Shown here piece by piece: positions 884 through 28,924 of a stretch of DNA of 29,104 bases. Position 1 is the stretch's first letter; each line of letters starts with the position of its first letter. The translations under genes were made by a program, and so were the position numbers. Origin of the DNA: a virus; the IMG/VR virus record IMGVR_UViG_3300036770_001375, positions 1-29,104 of that record. One strand, given 5' to 3'. The notes beneath the pieces are model-generated. The model did no database searches. It was given only the letters and a program-made list of their open reading frames with translations, and was not told where the DNA came from.

Positions 884-3832
884 TTATCTCCTGGCAGCCT
901 TCCAATTAAACAAAGTATTAGAAGCAGTTGCTCCAGGAGATAGAGAATTGCTCATTGGAGATGCTTGTTGACCACCAGGACCACCATAAATGTTATTAAT
1001 GATGTTGCCAGTTGGAGTGTTCATGCCCATGGCCATCATGGATACTTGTCCAGATGCTTGTGCTAAACTTGCTCCAGTATTTTGATTTGCTGGTGCTGCC
1101 TGTAAAGAACCAGGAGAAGATCCCGATCCTCTACTGCCTCCTTGTCCTCCACCTGCAGGTCGCGCTGCAGCAACATCTGGATTTTTTGATGTTGCTGACG
1201 CCAGAAAATTCAATGGATTGACAGTTCCAGAAAAACCAAATCCACCCTGTCCTTTTCGTATTTCATAATGAATTACGCCTGTATCAGTTTCTCCTTGAAC
1301 AATTGGAGTACCAGCAGAAACTTTCTGCCCCTGTTGTACTAAAACTTTTGCTCCTTCTGCTATTCGTTCAGTAACTTTTAATTGTTCATTGTAAATATCA
1401 ACATAATTTCCATATCCAGAAGGATCATATCCAATTTTAACTACAGTGCCACCAATTCTACTGTAAAATTTTTCATTACCACTTATATCAAAATCAACAC
1501 CAGCATGTTTTCTTCCCCCATCTCTGCCAGCTCCATATGCTTGCCCATGCATTGTTCCAGTTTTTGGAAGTGCTGGTAATCTTCCGGTGCTTAAAACAGA
1601 AGGAGCAGTAGAAACAGCATTTAATGACGCAGCCTTCGTTCCTTGTGCTGCTCCAAAGAAATAATTTCCACCCTGAGATCTTCTTCTTGATCCCTCTGTT
1701 TGATATCCCCTGAATGACATTGCTCCACCAACAAATTGAGCAGACGATTTTGACATTGCTCCGCTTGTCTCAAAATCAGCAAGAACTTTAGATGCTTCTG
1801 ATCCACTACCAGCACCAAATAATTTTTGAAGTTCTGCTAATCCATTTGGTTTTCCAGCAATTTCTAAAAGTTTTGCTTTTCTTTCAGCAGCATTTTTTCC
1901 TAATTTTTCTCGGATTTTTCCATATTTGGCATCTGCGGCATCATCTCCTGTTTTTCTGTCATAGATGGCAGCAGCAAATGGACTAAATTGACCTTGTGCT
2001 GTGATTTGATCAAATAAAGTAGTTCCGTATGCCTTCATGGAACCACCAGATTTTGCGTTAGCAGTTCTATTCAACATTACTTGGAAAGTGTCAGCGGCAG
2101 TTTGACCACCTCCACCTTCTAAAGTAGATAAAAATGCTGCGGCATTTCTCTCAGCAGTACTGCCTCCAATGCCACCATCCAAATAATCTGCTGGATTTCC
2201 AAAAGGAGCAGCTTGAGCAGCACCACCAAGTAAAGAAGTCAAAGTTCCGCTAAAAAGACCTCCAAGAACACCACTAATTTTACTCCAAACATTAGCAAGA
2301 CCTTTACCTAATTTTTCAGCACCACCTTCATTTTCATAATACTGTCTCAGTCCTTGTGATTGAATTTTCGCAAAATCTCTACTATTTGCTTTTTGAGCAT
2401 CAATCATTCCTTCACCAAACAACTTAAACATTTGCTTGGATTTTGCTTTGTCGCCACCAACCAAACCACCTTCAGCATATCCTTTGCCTCCAGTTGGTTT
2501 GTTAGCCCCACCACCCATTGCGTTCATTGCCAATAATGTACCTCTACCCCAGGCATTACCAGCAGAGTTGCTCATTACAACTTCGCCTTCATCAGCACGA
2601 ATGGGAACATCATCAACAACACTCTTCTTACCACCAGTAACAAGACCACCTCTAGCCATTCCAGAAGCAGCATCTTTTGCCATTAGGGCAGCATCAATAC
2701 CAAGAGACGCTGCTGTTCCAAAACCAGGAACCGTACTTGCTGCCCCCGATGCCAATTCCATTCCAGCACCAGCCCAGTCGCCTCTCATTGCTCTACCAGC
2801 AGCAAATAGTCCACCAAGACCCAATCCAAGCAATGGAACTTTTTTACCAGCGATACCAAGTGCCTTTAGACCCAATTTGCCAGCAATCTTAGATCCCATT
2901 TTGGCACCTTGTTTTCCAGCAACCTTTGCTCCATAGCGAGTTGCCATTCTACCAATACCACGTTTTGCTATGGCATTCGCTGCCACTTTGCCACCAAAAC
3001 CAAGACCAGGACCACCTCCAGCGCCACCACCCATTCCTCCTTGAGCAGCATTTCCTCCCAACTGAATGCCCCCAGATGGAGTAAGAAATCCGGAATTATC
3101 TACTGCTCCTTCTAATGATTTTTCTTCATCTCTTGCTAATGCTCTATTTGCTAAAGTATCTGCTTTTGCTGCTTCCTTATCAGAAATTTGTTTTTGTGCT
3201 GCTGTTTGTGCTTTTACAGCATCAACAAGAGATGTTACTACTTTAGTAAGATTTTCTACAGATCCTACAACCGCCTCATCGCCTTTAGTTACCAAAGAAG
3301 CACTTGAAATGCCAGAAGCTCCAGCAGATGCTACACTCGCAGTAGCATTCATCTGTGATTTTGATTTTTTCAGATAATCTTTTCTTTCTTCCGAACTTAA
3401 ATATCTGCCGGTTTCTGGATCTACACCAGTTTGTGCTGCTTTGAAAAATACTTCACTATCTAATTTTTTGGGAGCAGCAGAAATACCAGGAATATTTGTA
3501 AATGTTCCGCCTTTTGATGGAGCAGCAGGAGGTAACGCAGGTCTTCCTTGAGCAACAATATTACTTGAACCAGCACCAATCATTTTGGCAACTGGAGAAC
3601 CTTTAAGCATAGTTGCTGCTTTTGGTTCTTGTTTTTGCCCTACTTCAGTAACTCTTACTGCTTTTACTGATGGATCATAGATATCTGGTTTTGGAGTTGT
3701 TGCTAATGCGCCACCTTTTTCTTTTTCTTCTTTCTCTTCTTTCTCTTTGTTTAATTTTTTCCACAACCATTCAACGTTTCTCCAGAAGTTATCTCCTGAT
3801 ACTGGTGTAGGTGTTAGAAAACCGTGTGCCAT
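884..3832 (-). CDS. Tape-measure-like tail protein with SleB-like and M23 domains
   Basis: This is a 982-aa protein. Residues 1-40 end in a charged Lys/Glu run. Residues 270-390 are rich in Gly, Ala and Lys with hydrophobic stretches (LLGLGLGGLFAAG). Two Gly-rich ARGGLVTGG and YAEGGLVGG motifs, with VPIRADEGEVVMS between them, match a pattern common in phage tape measures. Residues about 560-660 (TLEGGGGQTAADTFQVMLNR, then QGQFSPF) resemble the cell-wall hydrolase SleB family. Residues about 765-875 are an M23 (LytM-type) fold, with Zn ligands H776 and D780 (HAGVD) and H855. The usual catalytic histidines appear replaced by E826 and V853. The start codon overlaps the stop of the gp26 extension frame as TAATG. 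Lying directly after a frameshifted chaperone pair is the classical tape-measure position. Function as tape measure with penetration domains is inferred; it would otherwise be called a virion peptidoglycan-hydrolase protein. Confidence 0.65.
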   Translation of the reverse strand: MAHGFLTPTPVSGDNFWRNVEWLWKKLNKEKEEKEEKEKGGALATTPKPDIYDPSVKAVRVTEVGQKQEPKAATMLKGSPVAKMIGAGSSNIVAQGRPALPPAAPSKGGTFTNIPGISAAPKKLDSEVFFKAAQTGVDPETGRYLSSEERKDYLKKSKSQMNATASVASAGASGISSASLVTKGDEAVVGSVENLTKVVTSLVDAVKAQTAAQKQISDKEAAKADTLANRALARDEEKSLEGAVDNSGFLTPSGGIQLGGNAAQGGMGGGAGGGPGLGFGGKVAANAIAKRGIGRMATRYGAKVAGKQGAKMGSKIAGKLGLKALGIAGKKVPLLGLGLGGLFAAGRAMRGDWAGAGMELASGAASTVPGFGTAASLGIDAALMAKDAASGMARGGLVTGGKKSVVDDVPIRADEGEVVMSNSAGNAWGRGTLLAMNAMGGGANKPTGGKGYAEGGLVGGDKAKSKQMFKLFGEGMIDAQKANSRDFAKIQSQGLRQYYENEGGAEKLGKGLANVWSKISGVLGGLFSGTLTSLLGGAAQAAPFGNPADYLDGGIGGSTAERNAAAFLSTLEGGGGQTAADTFQVMLNRTANAKSGGSMKAYGTTLFDQITAQGQFSPFAAAIYDRKTGDDAADAKYGKIREKLGKNAAERKAKLLEIAGKPNGLAELQKLFGAGSGSEASKVLADFETSGAMSKSSAQFVGGAMSFRGYQTEGSRRRSQGGNYFFGAAQGTKAASLNAVSTAPSVLSTGRLPALPKTGTMHGQAYGAGRDGGRKHAGVDFDISGNEKFYSRIGGTVVKIGYDPSGYGNYVDIYNEQLKVTERIAEGAKVLVQQGQKVSAGTPIVQGETDTGVIHYEIRKGQGGFGFSGTVNPLNFLASATSKNPDVAAARPAGGGQGGSRGSGSSPGSLQAAPANQNTGASLAQASGQVSMMAMGMNTPTGNIINNIYGGPGGQQASPMSNSLSPGATASNTLFNWKAARR

Positions 3833-4020
3833 TAGCGTTGTGCTGCTCGTTCTTGTTCTTGTTTAACTTGATCCAGATACTGCATCAGAAGAGTAGTATA
3901 AACCTGCCTCTCCCAAGGCATCATATTTTCAATGTCAGTCAAGCTATATTTATGGTGCTGCATCAAGGCAAAGTTAGTTTTATAGTACCCTTCCAAACTA
4001 TTATGGAAGAGTGCTATCCG
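3832..4020 (-). CDS. -1 frameshift extension of gp26 (gp51-like chaperone domain)
   Basis: This frame is open from the slippery site at the end of gp26 and runs 62 codons to a TAA that shares one base with the ATG of the tape-measure candidate. No good independent start exists near its beginning; the first ATG is about 20 codons in and has no clear Shine-Dalgarno sequence. The translated segment contains LMQHHKYSLTDIENMMPWER near its middle and a charged helical tail rich in Gln and Glu. Short basic helix and 'MPW' patterns of this kind are typical of the second domain of tail-assembly chaperones. Read with gp26, the fusion would be 299 residues. T4 has separate adjacent genes 26 and 51 here, so this segment may correspond to gp51. 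That equivalence is inference. Confidence 0.7.
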   Translation of the reverse strand, partial: RIALFHNSLEGYYKTNFALMQHHKYSLTDIENMMPWERQVYTTLLMQYLDQVKQEQERAAQR

Positions 4021-4730
4021 AAAAAATTTGTTAATCCTACAATTGTATATTCTGATGTTACACCTGTTTTTGGATTTTTCAGTGAGAATGTGTGCTCAAG
4101 TCTTGGTGTTTCATCAAAAAATTGTTTAACCTGTTCAAATTCTTTGTTTGTCAGACCTTCAATCCATTCAATAAATTCTTTCTTGCTGGTAGTTGAGCTA
4201 TCATAGACTTCTTCGTTATCAAATATCTGATCAACACAGGATGCCATTGCTTCAATCACACTGTCTGCTGTTGGTGAAGCACCAAGAATTGAATTTCTGA
4301 CAAAATCATCAAATGCCGGATATTTCATAATCATACCAGTTGTGTCAGAAAGCATAATTTTATTACTATGACCTTCTGGTTTTGTGACAGTAACTTTTGT
4401 GAGATCTAAGACATATTTTACAACGGTCTCTTCATCATCTCTACAAGTGATATTCATCTCAACTGTTTCTCCAACGGAAACAGCACGAATTTGTAGAAAA
4501 ATGTATTCTAAGTCAAAAGATGGCAATTCTTCAATTTTGATGCCTTTTGTAAGAATACAATTTTTAAGTAATGTCTTAAGTGCGTCTTCTACCGCTTTTT
4601 CATCATTTGTTTCCAGTGCCAACAAAAGTAGTTTTTCTTCTTTTACTACAAATGGGCGATATTTGATTTTTTTACCAGATGATGGAATTTCTAGCTCGTA
4701 AGTTGGAAGAGCGTGTTGTGGTAATGCCAT
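4014..4730 (-). CDS. 26: gp26-like baseplate hub / tail assembly chaperone
   Basis: This is a 238-aa protein starting MALPQHALPTYELEIPSSGK, which matches the T4 gp26 family (Pfam T4_baseplate). The family is characterised by a conserved PSxxKxIxYRPFxVKEEK N-terminus followed by helices. In T4, gp26 takes part in hub assembly inside the baseplate. Length is close to T4 gp26 (208 aa). The gene has a late-promoter-like CTAAATA about 25 bases upstream and lies between gp54 and the 982-aa gene. Its last codons, AAT TTT TTC GGA TAG, form a slippery run that could divert ribosomes into the -1 frame. That would make gp26 the short form of a chaperone pair. Family identification is firm; the chaperone role is inferred from the frameshift signature and gene order. 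Confidence 0.85.
   Translation of the reverse strand: MALPQHALPTYELEIPSSGKKIKYRPFVVKEEKLLLLALETNDEKAVEDALKTLLKNCILTKGIKIEELPSFDLEYIFLQIRAVSVGETVEMNITCRDDEETVVKYVLDLTKVTVTKPEGHSNKIMLSDTTGMIMKYPAFDDFVRNSILGASPTADSVIEAMASCVDQIFDNEEVYDSSTTSKKEFIEWIEGLTNKEFEQVKQFFDETPRLEHTFSLKNPKTGVTSEYTIVGLTNFFG
4020..4026 (-). promoter_or_regulatory. Programmed -1 frameshift heptamer T TTT TTC
   Basis: In the gp26 reading frame the minus strand reads A AAT TTT TTC GGA TAG. T TTT TTC is a canonical X XXY YYZ slippery heptamer. The preceding A AAT TTT (4023-4029) is a second overlapping one. A one-base slip back on TTT TTC gives TTT TTT CGG ATA and bypasses the gp26 stop two codons downstream. The -1 frame then stays open for 62 codons. 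I did not establish a downstream stimulatory pseudoknot. Confidence 0.7.
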
Positions 4731-4822: not shown

Positions 4823-5545
4823 TCAATTTCGGTTTCCAGGAACCACTCGTTGCTCTACGTCTTTCTTCTGAGATGGATTATACATTCCGTTGAGTGTTCC
4901 TGCTACAGATGTAATGTCATTTGGAATTGTATAATGTCTCGCATATGAGAATTGTGCTGAGACTTTTGCTATCTGCGAATTGCCATATGATAATGGAACA
5001 GCATCAACAGCATAAGGGTATGCTTCTTCTAAAACATAGGTGAGAGGAACTCTTTGATTTGGAGCATATGGACCTTGCTCCGTTTTGCTAATCAAAATAG
5101 TTCTGGCATATTCATTTTTGTATCTCAATCTAATTGATCTATTTCTTGCTCGTGGATTTGTGGATGCTAAAGACTGAATTTGCGCGAGAGATTTATTAGT
5201 CAATTGATCACTAAATTCTTTACTTTGACCACTAAAAATAAAATCCATCCACTTGTTCAAAAATTTCAAAGCAGATAAATTAGCATCTAACATAAACCCA
5301 AATTGGATCTCGGTGTATACTCTGGTATGAGGGTACTGAACTGATCCACTACCAAGATACAAACCATTGATAGACCCCTGAGCAGTGTTTGTATTTGGTA
5401 GTTGAGCTTCATCACAAAACAAAGAAACAATCTCATTAATACCATCATAAAGAACTGGTGGATTAATGATTTTTACTTCAAAATTATTGCTAAATGACAT
5501 TCCGCCATACTTAGCTACCGTGTTGATGAAGCTATTAATAGACAC
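4823..5545 (-). CDS. 54: gp54-like baseplate tail tube initiator
   Basis: This is a 240-aa protein starting MSINSFINTVAKYGGMSFSN. The organisation is a short N-terminal helix, KYGGMSFSNNFEV, a beta-rich core with FCDEAQLPN, then PHTRVYTEIQFGFMLD and FLNKWMDFIF. This is the tube-like fold signature shared by T4 gp19 and gp54. T4 gp54 (320 aa) sits on the baseplate hub, with gp48, and starts polymerisation of the gp19 tail tube. The start codon is GTG (5545-5543), with a weak AGG upstream and no better alternative. A CATAAATA late element lies 27 bases upstream. It is divergent from gp4 and just upstream of gp26. In T4, 48 and 54 are adjacent; here they lie on opposite arms of the divergent promoter. 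A tail-tube paralogue other than gp54 is possible but less likely. Confidence 0.72.
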   Translation of the reverse strand: MSINSFINTVAKYGGMSFSNNFEVKIINPPVLYDGINEIVSLFCDEAQLPNTNTAQGSINGLYLGSGSVQYPHTRVYTEIQFGFMLDANLSALKFLNKWMDFIFSGQSKEFSDQLTNKSLAQIQSLASTNPRARNRSIRLRYKNEYARTILISKTEQGPYAPNQRVPLTYVLEEAYPYAVDAVPLSYGNSQIAKVSAQFSYARHYTIPNDITSVAGTLNGMYNPSQKKDVEQRVVPGNRN

Positions 5546-15204: not shown

Positions 15205-16287
15205 TCAACCAATAGCAGGTGCTGTAAGAGCAACAGGTGTCATATCAGCAGCAGCAAGGTCAAGAGGGAAGTTATGAGCATTACGCTCATGCATCACTTC
15301 AAAACCGAGGTTAGCACGGTTGAGAATGTCTGCCCAAGTGTTGATCACATGACCCTTGTTGTCAAGTAGTGACTGGTTGAAGTTGAAACCATTCAGGTTG
15401 AATGCCATCGTGCTAACTCCAAGAGCAGCAAACCAAATACCAACAACAGGCCAAGCAGCCAAAAAGAAATGTAGAGAGCGAGAGTTGTTGAAGGACGCAT
15501 ATTGGAAGATCAAACGACCGAAGTATCCATGAGCAGCAACAATGTTGTAAGTCTCTTCTTCTTGTCCGAACTTGTATCCATAGTTCTGGCTTTCTACTTC
15601 CGTGGTTTCACGAACGAGGGAACTAGTGACCAGAGATCCATGCATAGCAGAGAAAAGAGAACCACCAAATACACCAGCCACCCCAAGCATATGGAAGGGG
15701 TGCATGAGAATATTATGCTCCGCCTGGAAAACAAGCATGTAGTTAAATGTACCTGAAATGCCGAGAGGCATACCATCAGAGAAGGAACCTTGTCCAAATG
15801 GATATACGAGGAACACTGCAGTAGCAGCAGCAACGGGTGCGCTGTAGGCAACACAAATCCAAGGACGCATACCAAGTCGGTAAGAAAGTTCCCATTCACG
15901 ACCCATGTAAGAGAAGACACCAATGAGGAAGTGGAAAACCACTAGCTGATAAGGACCACCATTATATAGCCACTCATCAAGTGACATCGCGTTCCAGATG
16001 GGATAGAAATGAAGTCCGATAGCGTTGCTAGAGGGAACAACAGCACCAGAGATGATGTTGTTGCCATACATCAGGGAACCAGCAACAGGTTCTCTGATCC
16101 CGTCAATGTCAACGGGTGGAGCAGCGACGAAAGCAACAATGAAACAGATCGTAGCAGCGAGAAGAGTAGGGATCATCAGCACACCAAACCAACCCACATA
16201 AAGGCGGTTGTTAGTGCTGGTTACCCACTCGCAGAACTGTTCCCATGTGTTGCTCCCATCGCGGCGTTGTGCGATAGTTGCGGTCAT
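15205..16287 (-). CDS. psbA: Photosystem II D1 protein
   Basis: This is a complete 360-aa D1. Functional residues, with host numbering one less because of an extra N-terminal residue, are Tyr162 (TyrZ) and Asp171 (Mn ligand). [15 protein letters not shown] carries the chlorophyll and iron histidines. The C-terminal processing site is after LDLAA. The position equivalent to 130 is Glu (YMGREW), as in the high-light D1:2 form, rather than Gln. Phage D1 replaces the fast-turning-over host protein so that photosynthesis continues during infection. No intron interrupts it. A sigma70 promoter and a late element overlap about 85-110 bases upstream, and a strong terminator follows. Confidence 0.99.
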
Positions 16288-26751: not shown

Positions 26752-26763
26752 CCTATGAAAAAA

Positions 26764-26834
26764 GCGGACAATCGGATTCGAACCGACGACATCTAACTTG
26801 GAAGGATAGCGTTCTACCACTGAACTATGTCCGC
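26764..26834 (-). tRNA. tRNA-Gly(UCC)
   Basis: This is a 71-nt cloverleaf. It has acceptor GCGGACA/TGTCCGC, D arm GTTC/GAAC, anticodon loop CTTCCAA (anticodon TCC) and T arm with TTCGAAT. The anticodon stem has one T-T mismatch. CCA is not encoded. It reads GGA and GGG codons, which may be more frequent in the phage than in a GC-richer host. Confidence 0.95.
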
Positions 26835-28093: not shown

Positions 28094-28333
28094 TCAATCA
28101 AATTTACGATAGGCACCCACTTCAGGGTCGGGATCTAACCACTTAGTATATTCAAAGTCCTCAATAGCAAGGAACATCTGAGCTTCATTATCACAATAAT
28201 ACATATCAGAATAACGCTTAGTCCAATCATTGAACTTTTGAATACGGCAATCTGGTTTGCCGTTGATTTCTAATTCACCACAAGTAACATAACGATAGGG
28301 GTGGCGTTCAAGAACTACATTGGGTTTGGTCAT
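28094..28333 (-). CDS. Hypothetical protein (79 aa), possible partner of Phd-like protein
   Basis: It starts MTKPNVVLERHPYRYVTCGE, contains INGKPDCRIQKFNDWTKRYS and ends in an acidic, aromatic WLDPDPEVGAYRKFD. It is rich in Tyr, Asp and Arg, with three cysteines. No toxin family (Doc, YoeB, RelE) can be recognised in it. The ATG overlaps the stop of the Phd/YefM-like gene (TAATG), so the two are translationally coupled. That arrangement would fit a toxin-antitoxin pair, but I cannot support toxin activity from the sequence. Confidence 0.65.
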   Translation of the reverse strand: MTKPNVVLERHPYRYVTCGELEINGKPDCRIQKFNDWTKRYSDMYYCDNEAQMFLAIEDFEYTKWLDPDPEVGAYRKFD

Positions 28334-28581
28334 TAAGAAGCATCGTCGTGATCATACATATTATCCCACAGTTCATCGTCGTTGTCAATAGGTTGTGCCA
28401 CTTTTGAAAGTGTCTTGAGATCAACTCCAGCTTCTTCAACTATGGATGCTGGGACCATGGCAACGGCAGATCCATCTTCTCTACGAATGATGAATGTTTC
28501 TCCCTGTTCTACACGCTCAACGATTTCATCAAAATTTTTTTCAAGTTCAAGTTCAGTGATTTCAATAGTTTCTTCAGACAT
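28333..28581 (-). CDS. Phd/YefM-like antitoxin-type protein (82 aa)
   Basis: The ATG at 28581 (MSEETIEITELELEKNFDEI) is preferred; an upstream in-frame start would lie deep in the glutaredoxin gene. The sequence ITELELEKNFDEIVERVEQG, then ETFIIRREDGSAVAMVPA, follows the Phd/YefM pattern (strand, LRxNLsevLdxVexG helix, VIIxRxGKPVAVLVP hairpin). This is the DNA-binding fold of type II antitoxins. The acidic C-terminus (IDNDDELWDNMYDHDDAS) is where antitoxins contact toxins. It overlaps the glutaredoxin end by 8 bases and the 79-aa start by one. It could be an orphan antitoxin that counters host toxins or a transcription regulator. Confidence 0.65.
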   Translation of the reverse strand: MSEETIEITELELEKNFDEIVERVEQGETFIIRREDGSAVAMVPASIVEEAGVDLKTLSKVAQPIDNDDELWDNMYDHDDAS

Positions 28582-28819
28582 TACAGCAGATATCATTTTT
28601 TTGTAGATATTTAACAGTTTCTTGGCATCCACCAAGTTGAATACCATCTAAGGTAATTTGTGGAAATGTAGATCCTTCACCAAATTCAGCATAGAATTCA
28701 TCAATGGTAAAATCTTTATCTAATTCATAAACAACATGGGTAAAACCTTCATGTTCCATTACAGCAATACATTTTTCGCAGAATGGACAACCTTGTTTTG
28801 AATAGATTGTAAAAGACAT
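28574..28819 (-). CDS. Glutaredoxin (second copy)
   Basis: From MSFTIYSKQG the active site is CPFC at residues 11-14, followed by a third cysteine. STFPQITLDG is the cis-Pro segment, and GGCQETVKYL the C-terminal helix. The ATG at 28819 with AGGTG upstream is preferred to a GTG two codons before. It is a typical dithiol glutaredoxin, more canonical than the CVWC one at 14860-15132, so the phage carries two types. It is the first gene downstream of tRNA-Pro in the direction of transcription. Confidence 0.88.
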   Translation of the reverse strand: MSFTIYSKQGCPFCEKCIAVMEHEGFTHVVYELDKDFTIDEFYAEFGEGSTFPQITLDGIQLGGCQETVKYLQKNDICCNV

Positions 28820-28847
28820 TGGCACCTAAAAAATTATATAGTAAAGA

Positions 28848-28921
28848 TCGGGGTGATAGGATTTGAACCTACGGCATCTCGCTCCCAAAGCGAGTGCTCT
28901 ACCAAACTGAGCTACACCCCG
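28848..28921 (-). tRNA. tRNA-Pro(UGG)
   Basis: It has acceptor CGGGGTG/CACCCCG with discriminator A, a D arm GAGCTC-type region and the anticodon arm CTCGC/GCGAG with loop TTTGGGA (anticodon TGG). The T arm has TTCAAAT. CCA is not encoded. It reads CCA and other CCN codons by wobble. Confidence 0.95.
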
Positions 28922-28924
28922 ATG

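Follow-up and report, generated by a model that had tools for sequence, protein, structure and literature searches.

A probable −1 ribosomal frameshift at the end of gp26 in cyanophages and other T4-like phages

The hub assembly chaperones listed for phage T4 include gp26 and gp51; gp51 is required, and is absent from the T4 particle (PMC3004832). In 2010, cyanophage gp51 was reported to be only ~20% as long as other gp51 proteins; gp51 of cyanophages and marine vibriophages is without the first ~200 residues, and phage Aeh1 was said to be without gp51 (PMC3037559). Where, then, is the rest of gp51 encoded? Here, we address this question at the gp26 locus of IMG/VR virus record IMGVR_UViG_3300036770_001375. 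The window, i.e., the whole stretch of DNA that was analyzed, is the complete record of 29,104 bases. At this locus, gp26 ends in a slippery heptamer, and the −1 frame is open beyond it. We regard a functional −1 frameshift, yielding short and long tail chaperones, as by far the best explanation, and we hold this view with high confidence. An initial annotation of the window had proposed such a frameshift; the proposal is largely upheld by a conserved heptamer, selection on the −1 frame, homology to gp51, and the fold of a tail assembly chaperone (TAC).

A slippery heptamer and an open −1 frame

All features of the junction lie on the − strand. The short, zero-frame form of the predicted chaperone, gp26 or TAC-N (238 amino acids; 4014..4730), is assigned from PF12322, phrog_150, and its predicted structure. 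Its final codons are AAT TTT TTC GGA TAG, placing the heptamer T_TTT_TTC (4020..4026) in the zero frame: AAT occupies 4028–4026, TTT 4025–4023, and TTC 4022–4020. A single codon, GGA, separates the heptamer from the zero-frame stop codon, TAG (4014..4016). The −1 frame beyond the heptamer begins CGG ATA GCA and runs for 62 sense codons (4020–3835) to a TAA (3834–3832) that overlaps the ATG of the next open reading frame (ORF; start at 3832) as TAATG. Together with its stop codon, this −1 extension (3832..4020) would form the C-terminal part of a fused product, TAC-NC (3832..4730), of 299 amino acids and 34.46 kDa, with the predicted junction peptide TGVTSEYTIVGLTNFFR, then IALFHNSLEGYYK. Recomputation bore out the coordinates of the heptamer, the 62-codon frame up to the TAATG, and the length of 299 residues, all as initially annotated.

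The heptamer is strongly conserved. A first set of 84 loci comprised 80 relatives, found when viral contigs were scanned with gp26, together with S-PM2, S-RSM4, ACG-2014j, and the window; T_TTT_TTC is at the same place in every one. The set was then widened by a scan with the gene of Prochlorococcus phage P-HM2 and by smaller scans with other relatives. With the Ackermannviridae and Vibrio phage K413 set aside, there were 133 distinct junctions, with TTTTTTC in 111 and TTTTTTA in 20, always in frame (131/133 together). The codon preceding TTT-TTC or TTT-TTA ends in T in all 131, while other Phe-Phe pairs in the same genes are TTT-TTC at just 10/132. TTTTTTA changes the zero-frame residue from F to L, yet retains the X_XXY_YYZ pattern, as predicted by selection for slippage rather than for protein sequence. 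On this comparison, the heptamer at the end of gp26 is not there by chance. The two exceptions are phiM7, whose T TTT TTT is a codon further upstream, and a Stenotrophomonas phage assembly (L189), which has five T rather than six. In the latter record, the missing T (2230–2260) disrupts gp26, and the one-base deletion is probably a homopolymer error.

Purifying selection acts on the frame that the heptamer would open. The ratio of nonsynonymous to synonymous polymorphism (pN/pS) is 0.08–0.28 for the −1 frame in three clades, codons 3–8 included, and changes concentrate at the third positions of this frame. In the other two frames, pN/pS is mostly >1, the lowest value being 0.79 (zero frame, codons 20–50, clade C). 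Codons 3–8 precede any start codon in most sequences. As judged from these ratios, purifying selection on the −1 frame sets in almost immediately past the heptamer, ahead of any start codon that is conserved. Moreover, at many loci (e.g., L011, L037, and L039), a TAA closes the −1 frame directly before the heptamer, meaning that the heptamer is the only point of entry into this frame for a ribosome. Two comparisons that the initial annotation had proposed as checks, conservation of the heptamer and constraint on the −1 frame, both came out in its favor. Its statement that the −1 frame has no usable start stands for the conserved first part; further in, the window clade carries TTG (codons 9 and 19) and ATG (codon 20, in 56/57 sequences), clade B has ATG at codon 10 in 34/40, and no internal start is common to all clades.

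Downstream structure, usually 5–9 nt away, is common but not obligatory at −1 sites. It is present in the window clade: in the window, a putative stimulatory hairpin (3987..4012) starts 7 nt past the heptamer, with a core 9-bp stem (ACTCTTCCA/TGGAAGGGT; as RNA, ACUCUUCCA/UGGAAGGGU) and an 8-base loop. If outer AUAG/CUAU pairs are included, the hairpin spans 3982–4017. Its minimum free energy is −16.2 kcal/mol (z −4.31), with 0/200 shuffles as stable. Since the hairpin lies within coding sequence, the −1 frame of each sequence was also recoded synonymously 300 times as a control; for the window, all 300 are less stable than the native hairpin. The native sequence exceeds its recodings in stability at p ≤0.05 in 35/57 sequences of the window clade, 30/39 of clade B, and 13/32 of clade C, although these sequences are related, so that the counts cannot be treated as independent tests. 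Between clades, the stems vary in sequence and register. Most pairs show hardly any variation within the window clade, where covariation is therefore uninformative; clade C has some compensatory pairs, and cells in which both sides of the stem have changed outnumber those in shuffles (13 vs 5.4), an excess carried by three pairs only. An Rfam search of the junction returned no credible family. Separately, in clade C (L152–L185), a stem with at least 7/8 pairs occurs in 13/21 junctions with TTTTTTA and in 0/11 with TTTTTTC.

Relation to T4 gp26 and gp51 and the fold of the predicted chaperone

Profile searches connect both parts of the locus to the T4 hub proteins. gp26 matches PF12322 at 2.6e-68 (profile positions 2–218 of 219) and phrog_150 at 1.4e-74. 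The extension matches phrog_634 at 3.4e-27, a family labeled “baseplate hub assembly catalyst”, as T4 gp51 is named. The two T4 genes, 26 and 51, are adjacent and divergent. PF12322 spans all of T4 gp26 and residues 1–201 of 249 in T4-type gp51. In profile–profile comparisons with hhalign, the fusion aligns with T4-type gp51 over columns 12–287, end to end through the extension (probability 99.5, E 1.8e-22); unshifted gp26 aligns with T4-type gp26 to the last residues (probability 99.4); and T4 gp26 and T4 gp51 align with each other (probability 99.0). The profile alignments, together with the coverage by PF12322, therefore identify T4 gp26 as a short form and T4 gp51 as a long form. By these alignments, T4 gp26 and gp51 are short and long paralogs that stand in place of one frameshifting gene. 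The initial annotation had likened the extension itself to a gp51-like gene. A profile comparison with T4 gp51 confirmed the homology, which continues through the extension; the extension is homologous to the C-terminus of gp51, but gp51 as a whole is a complete gp26-type domain plus the extension. In a tree, T4 gp26, T4 gp51, and the frameshift group fall apart from one another; the tree is unrooted, the frameshift group is weakly supported, and the order of events is not given by it.

Predicted structures suggest what this family may be. In AlphaFold2 models of the window gp26 and T4-type gp51 (pLDDT, i.e., predicted local distance difference test, 90 and 87, respectively), the elements follow largely the same order, and the T4-type gp51 model has three extra C-terminal helices past the point corresponding to the frameshift. 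When gp26 was compared with 720 chains using VIA-align, the top three, matching its first ~90 residues, were YqbN (3klu, Z 7.1), the HK97 TAC (2ob9, Z 6.9), and RBSTP2171 (3fgx, Z 6.5), i.e., the HK97 TAC and two small phage- or prophage-type proteins of like fold. The next matches were a small phage-island protein (5ir0, Z 4.2) and then unrelated chains (Z ≤2.8). We conclude from the models that the N-terminal domain of gp26 is likely to have a TAC fold, the Z values being supportive but not proof. The initial reading of gp26 as a TAC-type protein fits this match to YqbN and the HK97 TAC. The T4-type gp51 model, compared with a viral library, matches mainly relatives from phage baseplate hubs. 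Searches of solved structures by sequence, with gp26 and gp51 profiles against the PDB, gave nothing meaningful.

The proposed mechanism and its alternatives

These observations suggest the following scheme. Most ribosomes would halt at the TAG (4016–4014), yielding the 238-residue short form, TAC-N (“gp26”). A minority would pause at the hairpin, which lies 7 nt downstream, slip back one base on T_TTT_TTC, bypass the TAG, and translate 62 more codons to give a rare long form of 299 residues, TAC-NC. By analogy with lambda G/GT, the short form may supply the bulk of the chaperone, and the long form may recruit tail components through its C-terminal helices. T4 would make the equivalent two forms from separate, divergent genes: 26 for the short form, and 51 for the short domain plus extension. 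The heptamer, selection on the −1 frame, the hairpin, homology to T4 gp26 and gp51, and the TAC fold are all supported by comparing sequences; actual slippage, its efficiency, and the chaperone role are what we infer.

Several observations weigh against this scheme. The in-frame ATG (codon 20 in the window clade, elsewhere in others) could yield a separate small protein. Part of clade C lacks the hairpin, which also falls short of significance in ValKK3, Aeromonas phage 65, and YB07; it is thus common, not universal. The fold matches are moderate (Z ~7), and Foldseek alone, run with the predicted models against the PDB, gave no convincing match (E >1), so that the TAC match rests on VIA-align. 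In ValKK3, K575, YB07, and phiM7, an ATG overlaps the gp26 stop codon (TAATG or TGATG) beside the slippery site, and either route, slippage or the overlapping ATG, could be used. In Vibrio phage K413 (L093, 2040–2110), there is no heptamer, and the extension starts at a TAATG overlapping the gp26 stop codon, possibly making it a separate gene translated by reinitiation. The Ackermannviridae (L086, 2190–2290; L094; L190–L204) keep the extension in the −1 frame without a canonical heptamer or nearby ATG; there, ~30 bases at the junction (GA.ATTTTCATTTAATTTTTGAAATTGATTTA) are nearly invariant, though gp26 is only ~70% identical. Thus, the arrangement is not universal: some relatives carry an overlapping ATG, with or without the heptamer. 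The initial annotation had regarded homologs with their own start or without a slippery site as counterevidence; most relatives are of neither kind, but ValKK3, K575, YB07, and phiM7 have the ATG, and K413 and the Ackermannviridae also depart from the pattern.

Could the extension simply be a small gene in its own right, gp51, whose translation relies on reinitiation or on an ATG or TTG within the −1 frame, with no fusion being made? The ATGs at codon 20 in the window clade and codon 10 in clade B would serve this purpose, as would the overlapping TAATG/TGATG of ValKK3, K575, YB07, phiM7, and K413, and public annotations do call such genes; the annotators of S-RSM4 used the codon-20 ATG to call gp51. 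However, the calls use differing internal ATGs in S-RSM4, P-HM2, and S-PM2, no such start is called in ACG-2014j, S-CAM1, and S-CAM4, and called lengths range from 30 to 57 amino acids among cyanophages, as expected of an artifact. Purifying selection already acts on codons 3–8, ahead of the internal starts; no start is common to the clades; the heptamer stays in frame even though alternative codons exist; and the homologous T4 gp51 joins both parts in one chain. We therefore consider a separate gene very improbable. Still less credible is a frame change caused by RNA polymerase, rather than the ribosome, slipping on the run of six T. The homopolymer is present, and the L189 assembly has five T, but T6 is short for bacterial transcriptional slippage, which usually involves nine or more bases, and polymerase slippage needs none of the strict X_XXY_YYZ frame, the C/A ending, or the spaced hairpin.

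A different alternative accepts the frameshift product as real but makes it another kind of baseplate-hub assembly factor rather than a chaperone of the lambda G/GT type. The products of T4 genes 26 and 51 have been placed among the hub assembly chaperones, gp51 in a catalytic role (PMC3004832), and the 982-amino-acid ORF downstream is a tape-measure candidate only by position. Against this stand the TAC fold of the N-terminal domain, the tail-tube-type gene upstream, and a −1 frameshift that would produce short and long forms, as it does in lambda and HK97; a TAC assignment in T4-like phages has, according to papers citing it, already been published. We regard the hub-factor alternative as unlikely, and a pair of tail chaperones made by frameshifting as the preferred reading.

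The same arrangement extends well beyond cyanophages. TTTTTTC one codon before the stop, followed by an open −1 extension, is found in Aeromonas phages 65, Aeh1, CC2, and phiAS5, Citrobacter phage Ci1, Vibrio phages ValKK3 and K575, Stenotrophomonas phage YB07, Desulfovibrio phage 7757, and Synechococcus phage Bellamy; in Vibrio phage VmeM-32, the junction has TTTTTTT. By sequence comparison, the frameshift is very probably present in most of the distant T4 relatives examined. A wider scenario is conceivable, although we rather doubt it as a whole: the −1 frameshift, usually with a hairpin, would be the general and probably ancestral route to the chaperone pair in T4-like phages (Kyanoviridae, Schizotequatrovirus, Emmerichvirinae, Cinqassovirus, Chrysonvirus, and others), with its cyanophage part previously unrecognized; the T-even lineage would have swapped in a gene duplication that separates the short and long forms, and the Ackermannviridae would use a third way to make the same extension.

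Known systems, public annotations, and neighboring genes

Lambda G/GT, HK97 gp13/gp14, and P2 E/E′ likewise have short and long forms with a common N-terminal domain, made by a −1 shift close to where the first frame ends, and adjoin tail genes; the HK97 TAC is among the fold matches to gp26. They differ from the present locus in slippery sequence (GGGAAAG in lambda), and the PDB sequence search detected no similarity to them. T4 gp26 and gp51 share the PF12322 family and, as short and long forms, align end to end with the products here; the difference is that T4 has two separate, divergent genes and the window has one locus with a −1 signal. Another parallel is the TAC locus of phage Adele (Pakpunavirus/Vandenendeviridae), a myovirus with a conserved −1 frameshift at a poly-T sequence, GTTTTT; its extension, too, mostly appears in annotations as a hypothetical gene of its own. 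The phage family and motif are different, and the available part of that account describes no downstream hairpin (PMC12846349).

The short/long reading of T4 gp26 and gp51 is prior art. Vladimirov, Gautam and Davidson (2022, Virology 566:9-15) are cited for T4-like phages that, rather than frameshifting, carry a short copy and a long, fused copy (PMC10885494) and for poly-T slippery sequences in the TAC genes of T4-like phages (PMC12846349); the content of that study is given here as these two citing papers relay it. On the same basis, frameshifting in other T4-like phages is probably prior art as well. A literature search found no paper describing such a frameshift in cyanophages. What is added here seems to be the marine cyanophage comparison, the hairpin, the C/A alternation in the heptamer, and an explanation for short or missing gp51.

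The “gp51” of S-PM2, S-RSM4, P-HM2, and other cyanophages (PMC3037559, Fig. S3) is this extension (phrog_634). It was annotated as a short, separate gene without ~200 residues; here, it is the predicted second half of a frameshift product. The frameshift would explain the short gp51 of cyanophages and vibriophages because the first ~200 residues are encoded by gp26, and the “missing” gp51 of Aeh1 because this phage has TTTTTTC and an unannotated −1 extension. The initial claim that a frameshift would account for an overlooked gp51-like gene fits the truncated or missing gp51 calls and the Aeh1 extension. The truncated or missing gp51 in many public cyanophage records is likely an annotation effect of an overlooked frameshift, and a 15-year-old oddity (PMC3037559) reduces to a simple statement. 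Cyanophages, with frameshifting, and T4, with a gene duplication, also offer a natural comparison of two ways to two chaperone forms, and T4 genetics, with amber mutants in 26 and 51, could be used to test the roles of the short and long chaperones.

The genes flanking gp26 are also on the − strand. Upstream is a protein with a tail-tube fold (gp54/tail tube-like; 4823..5545; PF23849 Phage_TTP_2, 4.8e-78). Downstream is the 982-amino-acid ORF (884..3832), with an M23 peptidase domain (PF01551, 1.6e-9); it is a candidate tape-measure gene only by position, and no homology to the T4 gp29-type tape measure was found. Elsewhere in the window, the − strand ORF at 15205–16287 is, as we take it from its translation alone, the photosystem II D1 protein (psbA), which is usual in cyanomyoviruses, and a 104-amino-acid ORF at 28333–28647 (− strand) may encode an antitoxin of the Phd/YefM type, which it resembles by eye. 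Lastly, tRNA-Gly (tcc) and tRNA-Pro (tgg) genes lie on the − strand at 26763–26834 and 28846–28922, and the + strand ORFs across both are spurious.

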